From Pseudomonadota bacterium (GTDB lineage: Bacteria; Pseudomonadota; Alphaproteobacteria; Rhizobiales; Hyphomicrobiaceae): a stretch of DNA of 38,195 bases. Position numbers and translations under genes: made by a program. Shown in pieces: positions 12,691 through 23,163 of the stretch. The notes beneath the pieces are model-generated. The model did not search any database, was not told where the DNA came from, and saw only the letters and a program-made list of their open reading frames with translations. The stretch lies in contig JAFECH010000006.1 of NCBI GenBank assembly GCA_018242255.1, positions 1-38,195 of the forward strand. The letters run 5' to 3'. Within the stretch, counting starts at the first letter, position 1; each line of letters starts with the position of its first letter.

Positions 12691-12769
12691 GCGTTCGACA
12701 GCAGATCGTTAAGATCGGGCGTGTTTTTTGGCGGCTGCGCATCTTTCCGCGCGCGCGAAACCCGTTAGC

Positions 12770-14209
12770 ATGGCGTGTGACATTCCTCAGCCGCCAGAGG
12801 CCCGCTTGGAACTTTCAAAGGCCGCTCTTCTTCGCGATCTTCCCTCGGTCGATTCCGTTCTGAAAAGCGGCGTTGCCGTCGATCTTTTGCACCGCTTTGG
12901 CCGCGGTGTCGCAACCGACGCCATCCGCGCCGTGTTGGCAGAAACACGCGCCACACTCAAATCTGGAAGCACGACCTTGCCAACGACCGAGAGCCTCGTT
13001 GCGATCGCGTTTGCTCGCCTCGCTGAAGGCGAGCGCTCGACGATGCGTCCGCTATTCAATCTGACGGGAACGGTGCTGCACACGAACCTTGGTCGTGCGC
13101 TTTTGGCGGAAGCCGCCATCGACGCTGCGATTGAAGCGATGCGCGATCCAGTGGCGCTGGAATTCGACCTCGCGACCGGCAAGCGCGGAGAGCGCGACGA
13201 CCATATCAGAGAGCTGCTTTGCGAGCTGACCGGCGCGGAAGATGCCACCATCGTCAATAACAATGCCGCCGCCGTGCTGCTCGCGCTCAATACGCTTGCC
13301 GGAGGTCGCGAAGCCATCGTCTCGCGCGGCGAGCTGATCGAGATCGGCGGAGCCTTTCGCATGCCGGACATCATGTCCCGCGCGGGCGCCAAACTCATCG
13401 AGGTCGGAACGACGAACCGCACGCATGCAAAGGATTATCGCGCCGCGCTCACCGACTCGACCGGCGTTATTCTGAAGGTCCACACTTCGAACTATCGCAT
13501 CCTGGGCTTCACTAAAGAGGTCGCCGCCCCCGAGCTTGCGGAAATTGCTGCCGCGGCAGACGTTCCGCTGATGAATGACCTTGGATCAGGCTCATTGATC
13601 GACCTTTCGGTCTTCGGTATGCATAGCGAACCGACCGTGCGCGAAGCCGTCGCCGAAGGCGCGGGCATCGTTACGTTCTCCGGCGACAAGCTGCTAGGTG
13701 GACCTCAAGCGGGCTTCATCGTCGGCAAACGCGACCTGATTCAGGCGATTAATCGCAACCCGATGAAGCGCGCGCTACGTGTCGACAAGATCCGCCTCGC
13801 CGCCATCGAAGCCACGCTGAAACTCTATCGCGATCCCGACCGCCTGTTCGAACGCTTGCCGACGTTGCGCCTGCTCGCGCGACCGCGCGCCGATATCGAA
13901 GCCCAGGCCTTCCGGCTGCAACCCGATGTTCAATCCGCGGTCGGTTCGGATTTCGCGGTCGAACTTTGCGAATGCAAGAGCCAGATAGGCTCTGGCGCAT
14001 TGCCACTCGATACCGTCGAAAGTGCCGGGCTCGCCATTCGCTCGAAAAGCGGCGGCGCCGCCCTTGAACGTCTTGCGTCGGCGCTGCGCGCTCTGTCGCG
14101 GCCTGTGATCGGCCGCATCGAAGATGGCGCACTCGTTCTCGATGTCCGATGCTTGACCGACGAAGCTGCGTTTCTATCTGTGCTTGGACATCTCAATCGC
14201 CCCGCTTGA
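12770..14209 (+). CDS. selA: L-seryl-tRNA(Sec) selenium transferase
   Basis: SelA is a PLP enzyme that converts Ser-tRNA(Sec) to Sec-tRNA(Sec) using selenophosphate. The protein is 479 residues from the ATG at 12770; a TTG at 12728 would add 14 residues. The PLP lysine lies in [14 protein letters not shown] at Lys307. The family N-terminus (LPSVDSVL) and the segment [16 protein letters not shown] are present. Length compares with 463 in Escherichia coli. selB starts 36 bp downstream on the same strand, giving a selA-selB-selC unit. Confidence 0.97.
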
Positions 14210-14245: not shown

Positions 14246-16318
14246 ATGATCATCGGCACTGCCGGACACATCGACCACGGCAAGACGGCGCTCGTCAAAG
14301 CGCTGACCGGCGTCGATGGCGATCGCCTGAAAGAAGAAAAGGCACGTGGCATCACCATCGACCTGGGCTTTGCGTACATGCCGGTCGCGGATGGTCGTAT
14401 CATCGGTTTCATCGACGTTCCGGGCCACGAACGCTTCGTGCATACGATGTTCGCCGGTGCGAGCGGCATCGACCTGGCACTCCTTGTCGTTGCGGCCGAC
14501 GACGGCGTCAAACCGCAAACGCTCGAACACTTGGCCATCCTCGATCTCCTCGGGATCGGGAATGGGCTGATCGTCATCACCAAAGCCGATCTGGCGAGTG
14601 CCGATCGCTTGGCTGACGTCACGGCAGAAATCAAAGCCGCCGTTGCCGGAACGGTGCTCGAAGGCGCGGATGTTTTGCCGGTGTCAGCAGCAACCGGGCA
14701 GGGCGTCGACGCATTGCGCAGCCGGCTGATCGCGGCGGCAAACGAAACGCCCGCTCGCTCGTCGGAGGGCGCGTTCCGCCTCGCGGTCGATCGCGTCTTC
14801 ACGCTGTCCGGCATCGGCGTGGTCGTTACCGGCACCGTACTTTCGGGCTTCGTCGGCGTTGGCGCGCAAGTGCAAATCAGTCCATCGGGCTTGTCCGCGC
14901 GCGTGCGTTCGATCCATGCTCAGAACACGCCGGCGGAAATCGGCTGGGCCGGCGATCGCTGTGCGCTCAATCTTGCCGGTCTGGGCGTTACGAAGGAGTC
15001 AATCCGCCGCGGCGACGTCGTTCTCAATCCGGCATTGCACGCGCCAACCGACCGTATCGACGCGGTTCTGCACGTCCTCCCATCGGAAGAGAAAGCAGTC
15101 AGCCAGTGGTTCCCGGTTCGATTGCATCACGCGTCGGCTGAGGTCGGCGCGCGCATCGTTCTTCTCGATGACAAGTCCGTGCAACCCGGTGCAACGGCCG
15201 ACGTGCAACTCGTGCTTGATGCGCCGATCGCCGCCGCCGTGGCCGACCGCTTTGTCATTCGCGATGTCTCGGCGCAGCGCACGATCGGCGGCGGCAAGTT
15301 CATCGATCTGAGGGCGCCCGCCCGCAAACGGCGAACACCGGAGAGACGGGCTCAGCGTGCCGCGCTCGCCATCGACGATATTAAGGCAGCGTTTGCCGCC
15401 CTGCTCGACGCGCCGCCGTTCACCGCCGACCTTTCGACCTTCGCGCGAGATCATGCGCTCTCAGTGGCGCAGGCTGATCGCATTGCTTCCGAACTCGATC
15501 TCGTCGTCATCGATGCCGAAGGCGCGCGCGCGGCGATCTCGCCAGATCGATGGCAATCGTTTGTCGCGGCTCTGATTGAGCGCGTCACGCAGTTTCACGC
15601 CAACAACCCCGACCTCCAGGGCATTGGCCGAGAGCAACTGCGTCTGATGCTTGAGCCGCGACTGAGTACGCCCGTGTTCGCGGCGGCACTCTACAAAATC
15701 GCCGACAAAGGCGAAATCGCGCTCGATGGCGCCTTCGTTCGTCTCGCTGCCCATCAAGTGCGCTTGACGCCGGCCGATGAGGACACTTGGAAAATCATCG
15801 CGCGTCAGCTTGGCGGTAACGAGCGGTTTCGTCCGCCCCGTGTGCGTGACATCGCCAATTCGATCAAAAGCCCCGAGCGCGACGTCCGCCGCTTGATGAA
15901 GCTCGCAAGCCGCCTCGGGAGGGCCGATGAAATCGCGCACGACCATTTTTTCCTGCGGCCGACGGTCCGCGAGATGGTCGCGGTCGCTGCCGACGTGCAA
16001 GCGAAAGCCGAGACCGGCTGGTTCAACGCTGCCGAGTTGCGCGACCGTCTCGATAACGGCCGCAAAGTCGCGATTCAAATTCTCGAATTCTTCGACCGCA
16101 ATGGTGTGACGCTCCGCAAGGGCGATCAGCGCCGAATGAATCAACACCGGCTGGACTTGTTCGGAAGCATCGTGCATGCGTCCGCGACGGCCGATGGAGG
16201 AGAATCGTCCCCGGTGGGGCGTTCGGACTTCAAATCCGAGTGGGGCAGCGAGCCTGCCCTTGGTGGGTTCGACTCCCATTCTCCTCCGCCATCTCTCGCG
16301 AAGAAGCGGCCGTCCTGA
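14246..16318 (+). CDS. selB: selenocysteine-specific elongation factor SelB, with reading frame running through selC
   Basis: SelB is a GTPase that delivers Sec-tRNA(Sec) to UGA codons marked by a SECIS hairpin. The frame encodes 690 residues. G-motifs are GHIDHGKT (7-14), RGITID, DVPGHE and TKAD, followed by EF-Tu-like barrels and C-terminal winged-helix repeats (about 375-640) that bind SECIS RNA. The family-like end is near NQHRLDLFG. No in-frame stop follows; from codon 651 (16196) the frame enters the tRNA-Sec gene and stops at 16316-16318, adding 40 low-complexity residues. Either SelB carries this unusual tail or most transcripts are cut before it is made. Confidence 0.95.
16196..16291 (+). 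tRNA. selC: tRNA-Sec, anticodon TCA
   Basis: This is the 96-nt UGA-reading tRNA. The 8-bp acceptor stem is GGAGGAGA with TCTCCTCC, then G73 and an encoded CCA (16289-16291). The long D-stem is TCCCC/GGGG. The anticodon arm TCGGA/TCCGA has loop CTTCAAA and anticodon TCA at 16230-16232. A long variable arm is closed by GGGCAG/CTGCCC. The T-arm has 5 bp with loop TTCGACT. The 8+5 acceptor/T-stem layout is diagnostic of bacterial tRNA-Sec. The gene lies wholly inside the 3' part of the selB frame, beginning at a codon boundary; the selB stop codon starts 25 nt after CCA. Confidence 0.97.
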
Positions 16319-16330
16319 CGGCGGCGGGTT

Positions 16331-17377
16331 TCAGCGGATGACAATCTGCGGTGCGCCGCTCGCGACCGAACCAATGATACGAGCCATCGGATATCCCGCG
16401 CGTTCGATTTCGCTGCGAATGCTCTCAGCCCTGTCCGCAGCGCACGCGACGAGAAGTCCGCCGGACGTCTGTGGGTCCGTCAGCAGCGCTTGCTGCCATT
16501 TCGGACACTCGCTCGGCAAAAGGACCTCATGACCGTAGCTCGTCCAGTTGCGTCCCGATGCACCGGTGATGAAGCCGCTTTGGGCCAGCGCTTCGGCGTG
16601 TGAAAGAAACGGCAGCTTGTCGAATGCGATCTCGATGCTGACGCCGCTTCCGCGCGCGATTTCGAGCGCGTGTCCAAGAATGCCGAATCCGGTCACATCC
16701 GTGATGGCGTGAACGTCGTCATTCTCGCCGAGCGTCTGACCTACGCGATTGAGCAGCGTCGTTGAGGCCATGAACTCCGCGTAGGCATCGTCCGGCAATT
16801 CGCGCTTCTTGAAAGCGGCTGAGTAAATGCCGACGCCGATGCCTTTTGTCAGGATTAGCGCATCGTCCGGCTTCGCACCAGCATTACGGCGAACGTTCTG
16901 TGGCTTCGCGAGACCGATGATGGCGAGCCCGTAGATCGGTTCCGGCGCGTCGATTGAATGACCACCTGCTACGGGAATGCCGGCTTCCGCGCAAACGGAC
17001 GCGCCGCCCGCCAGAATCTCGCGCACGTCTTCAACGGCGAGTTTCCCAAGCGGCATGCCAAGGATAGCCAGTGCCATGATCGGGCGGCCGCCCATCGCGT
17101 ACACGTCCGAAATCGCGTTGGCGGCAGCAATGCGGCCGAAGTCGCGCGGATCATCCACCATCGGCATGAAGAAGTCTGTCGTCGCAATGATGCATTGGTC
17201 GTCGTCGATCTGCCAGACCGCAGCATCGTCGCCGGTTTCGGTGCCGACGAGAAGTTGCGCGAAAGGGCCCGCCGCGGGCTGCTTGGCGAGAAGCTCTTGC
17301 AGGACCGACGGCGCAAGTTTGCAACCGCAGCCGCCGCCATGCGCGAGATCGGTCAAGCGTTGTGTAGGGCCAGACAT
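16331..17377 (-). CDS. selD: selenide, water dikinase (selenophosphate synthetase)
   Basis: SelD makes selenophosphate from selenide and ATP, the selenium donor for SelA. The 348-residue protein has the catalytic loop GGGCGCK with Cys17 and Lys20, the same positions as in Escherichia coli. Metal-binding and ATP-site segments follow ([38 protein letters not shown]). The catalytic residue is Cys, not Sec, so SelD does not need Sec for its own synthesis. It converges with selB/selC, with only 12 bp between the two stop codons. It lies 148 bp downstream of fdhE on the same strand and may share the formate dehydrogenase transcript. Confidence 0.97.
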
Positions 17378-20091: not shown

Positions 20092-23000
20092 TCAGACCAA
20101 AGGTCCGCTGACACTTTCGACATTCACAAGGAACGCCTTGAACTCAGGCGTCTGAGTGTTGGCGTCGCCGACCGACGGCGTCAGCGTGTTGGCGCCGTAG
20201 CCCTTTTTTGCCTGTCCGGTGAATCCCCAATGCAGTGGCACCCCGATAACGTGCGTCGGCTTGCCATCGACCATCAGCGGCTTGATCCGCTTGGTGACAT
20301 AGGCTTTGCAAACGATGAAACCGCGCTTTGAGGCCACGCGCACCCAGCCATTCTGCGCAATGCCTTTTTCCTTCGCGAGCGCTTCGCCGATCTCGATGAA
20401 CTCCTGCGGCTGTAGGATCGAGTTGATGCGCGCGTGCTTGGTCCAGAAATGGAAGTGCTCCGTGAGCCGGTACGTCGTCGCCACATAGGGAAACTCTGCC
20501 GGCGTACCGAAATCCGCTCGATCATCCGGGAACACGCGCACCGCGGGGTTCGACTGAACCTTCGGATGCAGCACGTTGATCGCGGGAGATTCGAGCGGCT
20601 CGTAATGCTCCGGGAATGGCCCCTCGACCATCATCTGGCGAGCGAACAACCGGCCGACGCCTTCCGCATTCATGATGAAGGGACCAACCGAATCCGATGG
20701 CTTCACCGTCGGGCCGTAGTCTGGCACGTCGACGCCGACCCACTTCGACCCGTTCCACTGAATGATCGGCTTGGCTGGGTTCCAAGGGTTGCCTGCCGGG
20801 TCCGCACTGGCGCGATTGTAGAGGATGCGCCGGTTGGCAGGCCATGCCCACGCCCAGTTCGGCGCGATGCCCGCTTCGCGCGGATCCGACGCGTCGCGCC
20901 GTGCCATCTGGTTGCCCTGCTCGGTCCAACAGCCCGAGAAGATCCAGCAGCCCGACTCCGTCGTGCCGTCGTCTCGCAGTTGGCCGAAGCCATCGAGCAG
21001 TTCGCCGGCTTTCTTTACGACGGCACCGGATTCATCCTTGAGCTCGACGAGCGCGCGGCCGTTCATGTCCTTCGCCAGCTCATTCGGGTTCGGCTCGACA
21101 GGATTGGTGTAGTCCCACGTCAGGTTCAGGATCGGATCGGGAAAAGCGCCGCCTTCTTTGCGATAAAGCTCGCGCATGCGGTGGAAGATGCCGGACATGA
21201 TCCAGATGTCGGGCTTTGCTTTTCCCGGCGGCTCCGCCGCTTTCCAGTGCCACTGCAGCCAGCGCGCCGAGTTGACCAAGGAGCCTTCCTCTTCCGCAAA
21301 GCAGGTCGTCGGCAGTTGGAAGACTTCCGTCTGGATCTCGGCGGAATCGGCCGGGTTCTGCGGTCCGAAGTTCTCCCAGAAGCGCGACGTCTCCGTATCG
21401 AGCGGATCCATCGTCACGAGGAACTTGAGCTTCGAAAGACCGCGCCGGATCTTGCCGCGATCGGGGAAGGCCTGTTGCGGATTGAAGCCTTGGCAGATGT
21501 AGCCGTTCATCTGCCCTTGGTTCATCATCTCGAAGGCTTTGATGATGTCATACAGCGGAATGTCGAGCTTCGGCAGCCAGTCGTAAGCCCAGTTGTTCTC
21601 CGGCGTGGCGGCCTTGCCGAACATAGATTTCTGGAAGCTGACGAAGAACTTCCTGTAGTTCGACCAGTAGCTCGTTTGCCCCGGTCGCAGCGGTTTATAA
21701 AGCCGCGTCTTCATGTAGTCGTCGAACGTGACCTCGTGATCGGCCGCAAGCGTCATGTAGCCCGGCATGAGGTTCGACAAAAGCCCGACGTCGGTCAGTC
21801 CCTGAATGTTCGAGTGACCGCGCAATGCGTTCATGCCGCCGCCCGCGACGCCGATGTTGCCGAGCAAAAGCTGCACCATCGCCATCGTGCGGATGTTCTG
21901 CGAGCCGATCGAGTGCTGCGTCCAGCCGAGCGCGAACAGGCTCGTCATCGCTTTATCCGGCGCTGCCGTCTCTGCGATCATCTCGCAGATGTGCAGGAAC
22001 TTGTCCTGCGGCGTGCCGCATATGCGCGACACCATCTCCGGTGTGTAGCGCGCGACGTGCGTCTTCAGCAGGTTCATGACGCAACGTGGGTGCTGCCACG
22101 TATCGTCGACCTTCGCGAAGCCTTGATCGTCGAGTTCGTAATCCCAGCTCGATTTGTCGTACTGGCCTTTTTCGGAGTCGTAGCCGCTGAACAGGCCGTC
22201 TTCGAACGCATAACCCTCTTTGATGATCAGACCGGCGTTCGTATAGGCGCGCACGTACTCGTGCAGGATCTTATCCTTTTCGAGCAGATACCGGATCACG
22301 CCCGATAGGAAAGCAATGTCGGTGCCAGGACGGATCGGTGCATAATAGTCCGCGACCGACGCCGTACGCGTGAATCGCGGATCGACGACGACGAGCTTCG
22401 CCGCGTTTTCTATTTTTGCTTCGATGACCCACTTGAAGCCGCACGGATGCGCTTCAGCGGCGTTTCCGCCCATAACGATGACCAAATCGGCATTCTTGAT
22501 ATCCTGCCAAGTATTGGTCATTGCACCGCGACCGAATGTTGGAGCCAGACTGGCCACCGTCGGTCCGTGTCAGACACGTGCTTGGTTATCGAAGACCAGC
22601 ATTCCGAATGAACGGGCAACCTTCCACGTCAGATAAGACGTTTCGGTCGATGAAGCCGAAGCCGCCAGCATGCCGGTCGAGATCCAGCGATTGACGGTGG
22701 TGCCCTCGGCATTCTTGGCGATGAAATTCTTGTCGCGGTCGTCCTTCATGAGACGCGCGATGCGATCGAGCGCCCAATCCCAGGAGACTTCCTCGAATTC
22801 GGTGCCGCCGGGCTTGCGGTACTTCGGCACTTGCAGGCGCGTTGGCGCGTGGACGATGTCCAGCAGTGCCGAACCCTTTGGGCAGAGCGTGCCCCGGTTC
22901 ACCGGATGGTCCGGATCGCCTTCGATGTGAATGATGTCGGAGCGGGCATTCTTGGCACCGTCACCGAGCGTGTAAATCAGGATGCCGCAAGCCACAGAAC

Positions 23001-23163
23001 AGTAGGTGCAGGTGTTCCGTGTTTCCTTCGCATGGGTGAGCTTGAAGGGGCGAACGTTTTCCGCCACTGCCTCACCGCAACTGCCAAACCCAAGGGCACC
23101 CAAGCTCGATGTCGCGAGCGTCGCGCCGGTGAGCTTGATGAAGCCTCTGCGACTGAGATCCAT
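20092..23163 (-). CDS. fdoG: formate dehydrogenase alpha subunit, selenoprotein (Sec at residue 198)
   Basis: This catalytic Mo/W-bis-MGD subunit oxidises formate to CO2 in the periplasm. It has 1023 residues if the TGA at 22572-22570 is read as Sec; otherwise it splits into two frames (23163-22570 and from about 22557 down). The N-terminus has a Tat signal ([14 protein letters not shown]). A 4Fe-4S site uses C52, C55, C59 and C94. The Sec context reads [14 protein letters not shown], exactly where FdnG/FdoG have Sec. A SECIS-like hairpin follows the TGA. The protein continues normally to residue 1023, so this is a selenoprotein, not a pseudogene. GGAG lies before the ATG. It is first in the operon fdoG-fdoH-fdoI-fdhE. 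Confidence 0.96.
22541..22558 (-). promoter_or_regulatory. SECIS-like hairpin downstream of the fdoG UGA
   Basis: On the minus strand, starting 11 nt after the TGA, the RNA reads GGUGGCCAGUCUGGCUCC. An outer GG/CC pair is followed by an unpaired U on the 5' side, then a 5-bp stem GGCCA/UGGCU and the apical loop GUC. This is the layout of the Escherichia coli fdhF SECIS, where SelB recognises the bulged U and a GGUC loop; here the loop is one base shorter. The sequence also encodes protein, as is normal for bacterial SECIS elements. Confidence 0.8.

Follow-up and report, generated by a model that had tools for sequence, protein, structure and literature searches.

The complete nesting of selC, the gene for tRNA-Sec, in the selB frame was reported by Mukai in 2021 (IJMS 22:4605, PMC8124441) across Alphaproteobacteria, Rhizobiales included. 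SelB and tRNA-Sec are there proposed to be alternative products of one transcript: processing of the tRNA is hypothesized to generate a nonstop selB mRNA and, with it, lowered SelB. In many of the described cases, without this being stated as universal, the next ORF begins within the selB stop. The same account of nested selBC is repeated by two later reviews (PMC9312934, 2022; PMC13188914, 2026), and no experimental follow-up of the nesting was found in the open-access literature searched.

Partial overlaps of selB and selC are described in Dyella/Luteibacter and in Nitrospirae (PMC8124441): in all of them, as in the locus reported here, the selB frame enters selC, but the stop falls inside the tRNA (nt 46–48 in Dyella/Luteibacter), while here it lies beyond it. 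A tRNA-Lys gene inside cox1 is known from Armadillidium mitochondria (Doublet et al. 2015, cited in PMC8124441). As summarized in the citing paper, it shares a whole tRNA within a protein frame, the direct orientation and a similar processing idea; it differs in being mitochondrial, in a compact genome, and in involving genes unrelated to selB and selC.

Organization of the locus

The window, i.e. the whole stretch of DNA analysed, spans 38,195 nucleotides (contig JAFECH010000006.1, assembly GCA_018242255.1) and comes from a Hyphomicrobium-like bacterium. An entire selC gene is found inside its selB frame: the arrangement is real, conserved, and of a kind already known. A previous sequence-only reading had placed the whole of selC within selB, and these coordinates are confirmed by ARAGORN and by Rfam family RF01852, with both genes on the same strand. 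Its statement that full nesting was undescribed is wrong, since exactly such nesting, in Rhizobiales and other Alphaproteobacteria, is reported by Mukai (2021; PMC8124441). The features of the locus are the following:

12728..14209, + strand: selA, upstream of selB and on the same strand (TIGR00474, 592.5 bits; cut-off 267.9)
14246..16318, + strand: selB ORF, 690 amino acids, including the nested tRNA, plus stop (TIGR00475, 418.9 bits; cut-off 242.25)
14246..16165, + strand: SelB core, residues 1–640, with DLFG at its end
16166..16195, + strand: linker, 10 codons, residues barely constrained
16196..16291, + strand: selC, tRNA-Sec with CCA, selB codons 651–682
16292..16318, + strand: 8 further codons past the tRNA, then the TGA stop of selB (16316–16318)
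16331..17377, - strand: selD, convergent with selB (TIGR00476, 426.3 bits; cut-off 125)

The window protein passes the curated SelB cut-off. The tRNA, with anticodon TCA, is 96 nt long with its CCA and scores 83 bits against RF01852, where the gathering score is 47. As had been noticed, it begins exactly at selB codon 651, a GGA (14246 + 3x650 = 16196); its CCA is codon 682. It was likewise correctly read that no in-frame stop lies ahead of selC, the first one being the TGA beyond it. The same bases had been said to encode a structural RNA and 40 amino acids: this holds for 32 codons, while the other 8 of codons 651–690 lie after selC. No SelB library model extends past residue 631, the last winged helix ending at about 630, and the conserved DLFG occupies residues 637–640; the predicted SelB tail counts 50 residues, 10 from the linker, 32 encoded by the tRNA and 8 after it. 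Stop triplets are absent from all three forward frames of the window selC, so that an open frame through it is easy to get: the phase and stop tests reported below are stronger evidence than the open frame alone.

Compared to the nested selBC of Mukai (PMC8124441), the locus shares genes, strand and phase, as well as the Gly (GGA) starting the extension and the Pro (CCA) ending its tRNA part; the tRNA, 96 nt in the window, is 96 nt there too (93 without CCA). It differs at the selB stop, which in the window overlaps no start: the six bases after the TGA are CGGCGG, and the neighbouring selD is convergent. Hyphomicrobium is not named in the text of that paper, although its figures may name it, and neither phase nor stop position is tested statistically in the text; such tests were made here.

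A user of the selenocysteine system is present in the window. The gene for a formate dehydrogenase alpha subunit (20092–23163, minus strand) features an in-frame TGA at 22570–22572, with a SECIS_3 element at 22517–22575, on the minus strand, and is followed by genes for the beta and gamma subunits and for FdhE. Plain ORF calling splits the alpha subunit gene in two at this TGA.

Survey of selB loci

selB was searched with TIGR00475 in four sets of genomes, overlapping one another and drawn at the level of family (103 genomes), order (397), class (385) and phylum (398). Matches at E 1e-80 were obtained in 29, 25, 54 and 48 genomes, respectively. 36 more loci were added by place, and 80 named loci by a contig search. 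The latter are the best 80 of 579, ranked by their similarity to an alignment containing many nested relatives, and the proportion of nested loci given below is therefore no population frequency. Of the resulting 225 loci (L009–L233), 211 were kept and 14 dropped: 5 end before SelB residue 620 and 9 are identical to a kept one over the last 900 nt. Two of the 211 (L058, L092) were excluded from the tree. The 5' ends of the tRNAs were shifted to a GGA at most 2 nt from the ARAGORN start, equally in all classes; one of the 50 nested tRNAs (L015) lacks a GGA in that range, and its position is the one given by ARAGORN.

selC is nested in 50 of the 211 loci, the selB stop falls inside selC in 9 and before it in 93; for the remaining 59, a same-strand tRNA-Sec is absent downstream, within flanks of mostly 1.5–3 kb. 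In the genus of the window, selB is present in 13 of the 22 genomes searched, and all 13 are nested: a sequencing error hiding a stop, raised in the sequence-only reading as a possible source of the nesting, is ruled out by this conservation, and so is the case of relatives in which selB always stops before selC. Twelve nested loci, with linkers identical at 30 nt, form the clade of the window in the tree; the 13th genome of the genus (L015), also nested, falls in another clade. On the whole tree the state of nesting changes at least 14 times, which indicates that nesting is dispensable rather than essential, and 25 loci with a stop before selC fall in the tree clade of the nested ones.

In three loci (L182, L200, L206; two of the three record titles name Acetobacteraceae) selB enters selC in phase 1 and stops inside the tRNA: this partial overlap is of a second type, unmentioned in the text of Mukai (PMC8124441). 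In Roseococcus pinisoli (L164) the linker is gone, and the tRNA abuts the conserved DLF end of SelB. A locus from a record titled Candidatus Eremiobacteraeota (L158) lies among Dyella in the tree and, as in Dyella, has its stop inside selC; it is likely a misplaced contig of its assembly, or a transfer. Phase-0 partial overlaps are found in two lineages outside the nested clade (L132, L222; one titled Nitrospirae), indicating that the overlap of selB and selC probably arose more than once.

Phase of the tRNA

The tRNA is in phase 0 with SelB in all 50 nested loci. Separate loci with selC within 600 nt distribute over phases 0, 1 and 2 as 33, 25 and 30 (n=88). The same is seen in the 87-leaf clade which includes the nested loci: 49 out of 49 nested loci are in phase 0, while separate ones, with selC at 150 nt or less, are distributed 8, 6 and 9 (n=23). 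The phase is fixed in spite of variable linkers: nested linkers span -3 to 93 nt as measured, or -3 to 90 nt, with 17 different lengths, when the anchor is set to residue 640. Over the 49 nested leaves of the tree at least 21 changes of linker length are required, always by multiples of three; for separate loci within 300 nt (n=84), parsimony gives 33 phase and 67 length changes, not strictly comparable with the 21 of the nested ones.

The tRNA is open in all three frames in 39 of the 50 nested loci and in 34 of the 88 separate ones, and this scarcity of stop triplets in tRNA-Sec means that nesting could be passive. Linker and tRNA together contain no stop in frame +1 for 39 of the 50 nested loci, and none in frame +2 for 29 of them: as a frameshifted reading is mostly still open, phase 0 is not forced by the definition of nested locus.

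Position of the selB stop

In nested loci, the median distance from the tRNA to the first stop is 7 codons in the selB frame, and 35 and 24 codons in the other frames; the corresponding medians for separate loci are 27, 32 and 20. The selB-frame stop is the nearest of the three in 45 out of 50 nested loci and in 27 out of 84 controls; in the clade of the window, in 10 out of 12.

Two points affect the reading of these figures. The selB stop lies within an ATGA in 20 of the 50 nested loci, and overlaps a start, by a wider rule, in 30 of them: a downstream ORF starting at the selB stop opens another frame, and part of the result is inflated accordingly. Yet the selB-frame stop is still the nearest in 17 of the 20 nested loci without an overlapping start codon. 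Moreover, the loci are related by descent, so that raw P values overstate the case; when relatives are collapsed, at three cuts, the selB-frame stop is nearest on average in 31.7 of 35, 18.2 of 20 and, at the coarsest, 7.7 of 8 clusters.

Constraint on the tail residues

Within the clade of the window, the variability of the last 60 SelB codons is 0.15, 0.09 and 0.46 at the three codon positions, while in the linker the positions vary alike (0.40, 0.32, 0.42). Of the 32 codons in the tRNA, 5 vary at the third position, against 2 each at the first and second; the excess may be seen as a faint indication of constraint at the codon level. A comparison of 41 nested with 69 separate tRNAs, all distinct, yields no significant codon-level selection on the residues encoded by the tRNA: third positions hold a share of 0.370 and 0.346 of the diversity, respectively, and 114 of 2000 label shuffles, which ignore relatedness, give as large a difference. 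In the last 32 SelB codons, third-position variability (0.418) is slightly below that of most other windows of codons (0.33–0.59), so that a weak hidden signal may exist there.

Across 25 aligned proteins the tRNA-encoded tail residues are similar, as expected already from conservation of the tRNA by itself. Codon-level conservation of the extra residues, proposed as a check in the sequence-only reading, gives an unclear signal: conservation of the tail follows the tRNA and does not extend to the linker residues. What looks selected is the frame together with its early stop, with no need for the residues to be preserved. With the frame kept and the peptide barely constrained, it is likely that ribosomes do traverse the tRNA; the pattern fits their doing so at a frequency that gives a frameshift or an overlong tail consequences.

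Search for signals of expression

A scan for sigma-70-like promoters between 15700 and 16450 found none (a single consensus type, with 0.1 sites expected by chance): a selC promoter of its own at the end of selB, of this type, has no consensus site there. A pattern scan for terminator-like sites after selC also found none, where 0.7 are expected; as evidence, both negative scans are weak. The structure predicted for the mRNA end has a stability similar to that of shuffled sequences (z -1.05); the minimum-energy structure shows the acceptor stem of the tRNA, the D-type and the anticodon hairpins, with the variable and T arms merged into one hairpin. Being no stabler than shuffles, and with merged arms, it is weak folding evidence.

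A second selC in the genome was also considered: 7 of the 8 other RF01852 matches could be typed by ARAGORN, all as tRNA-Ser, -Leu or -Gly, with one tRNA-Ser exceeding the family cut-off; the eighth, at 33.6 bits, is untyped. The genome contains an alpha-tmRNA (303.5 bits), for the rescue of nonstop ribosomes.

Discussion

The best explanation, for which the odds are judged somewhat better than even, is that an alphaproteobacterial in-frame selC has been inherited, and that one co-transcribed RNA serves either as selB mRNA or as tRNA-Sec precursor. Ribosomes reading to the end would produce SelB with its 50-residue tail; should the tRNA fold and be excised, presumably by RNase P, the selB frame would be left on that molecule without a stop codon, and its product would be directed to ribosome rescue. 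SelB and tRNA-Sec would then be competing outputs of one RNA, a feedback which would hold their ratio and might be of benefit to the cell. The mechanism is that of Mukai (2021); what is new here are the tests that the frame itself is maintained.

The same arrangement might have been inherited without any use, if selB lost its stop once and the frame ran on through a stop-poor tRNA-Sec. Nested tRNAs, that of the window included, are in fact mostly open in all three frames, linker residues are nearly free of constraint, and the state of nesting has switched repeatedly. Such a passive overlap would hardly keep phase 0 in 50 out of 50 loci, through 17 linker lengths, nor place the nearest stop in the selB frame so much more often than in controls, and is regarded as rather unlikely. 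The tail could instead be a working part of SelB, e.g. a basic tail aiding mRNA or tRNA binding, selected as a protein. The similarity of its tRNA-encoded residues, the more variable third positions in the clade of the window and the slightly higher third-position share of nested tRNAs would fit; but the similarity is already demanded by the tRNA, the codon test, which takes no account of relatedness, falls short of significance, the codon positions of the linker vary alike, and 25 loci of the same tree clade stop before selC. A role for the peptide is accordingly seen as very improbable.

Little more probability is given to translational coupling, in which the frame would be kept so that ribosomes reach a next start overlapping the selB stop. 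Such coupling is described by Mukai (PMC8124441), and the ATGA and other start overlaps counted above agree with it. The stop of the window, however, reads TGACGG and faces a convergent selD: as selB here runs into no next start, coupling cannot explain in general why the frame is kept, and the selB-frame stop is nearest also where no start overlaps. Mukai's model of one RNA with two exclusive uses is favoured as the most likely.

Within this model, translation itself may gate the maturation of the tRNA: ribosomes finishing selB would unfold the tRNA, making the two outputs exclusive, and selection would act on the frame, not on the peptide. This extension is put forward tentatively, as a possibility that is doubtful so far. 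If true, selC would be a ribosome-gated tRNA gene setting the ratio of SelB to tRNA-Sec, and the selected trait would be the phase together with a nearby stop.

A complete tRNA within a conserved protein frame points to one RNA with two mutually exclusive uses. Given the evidence that the frame is kept, the 2021 proposal is less a question of annotation and comes closer to describing a selected trait; it may now be tested by simple recoding in laboratory Alphaproteobacteria.
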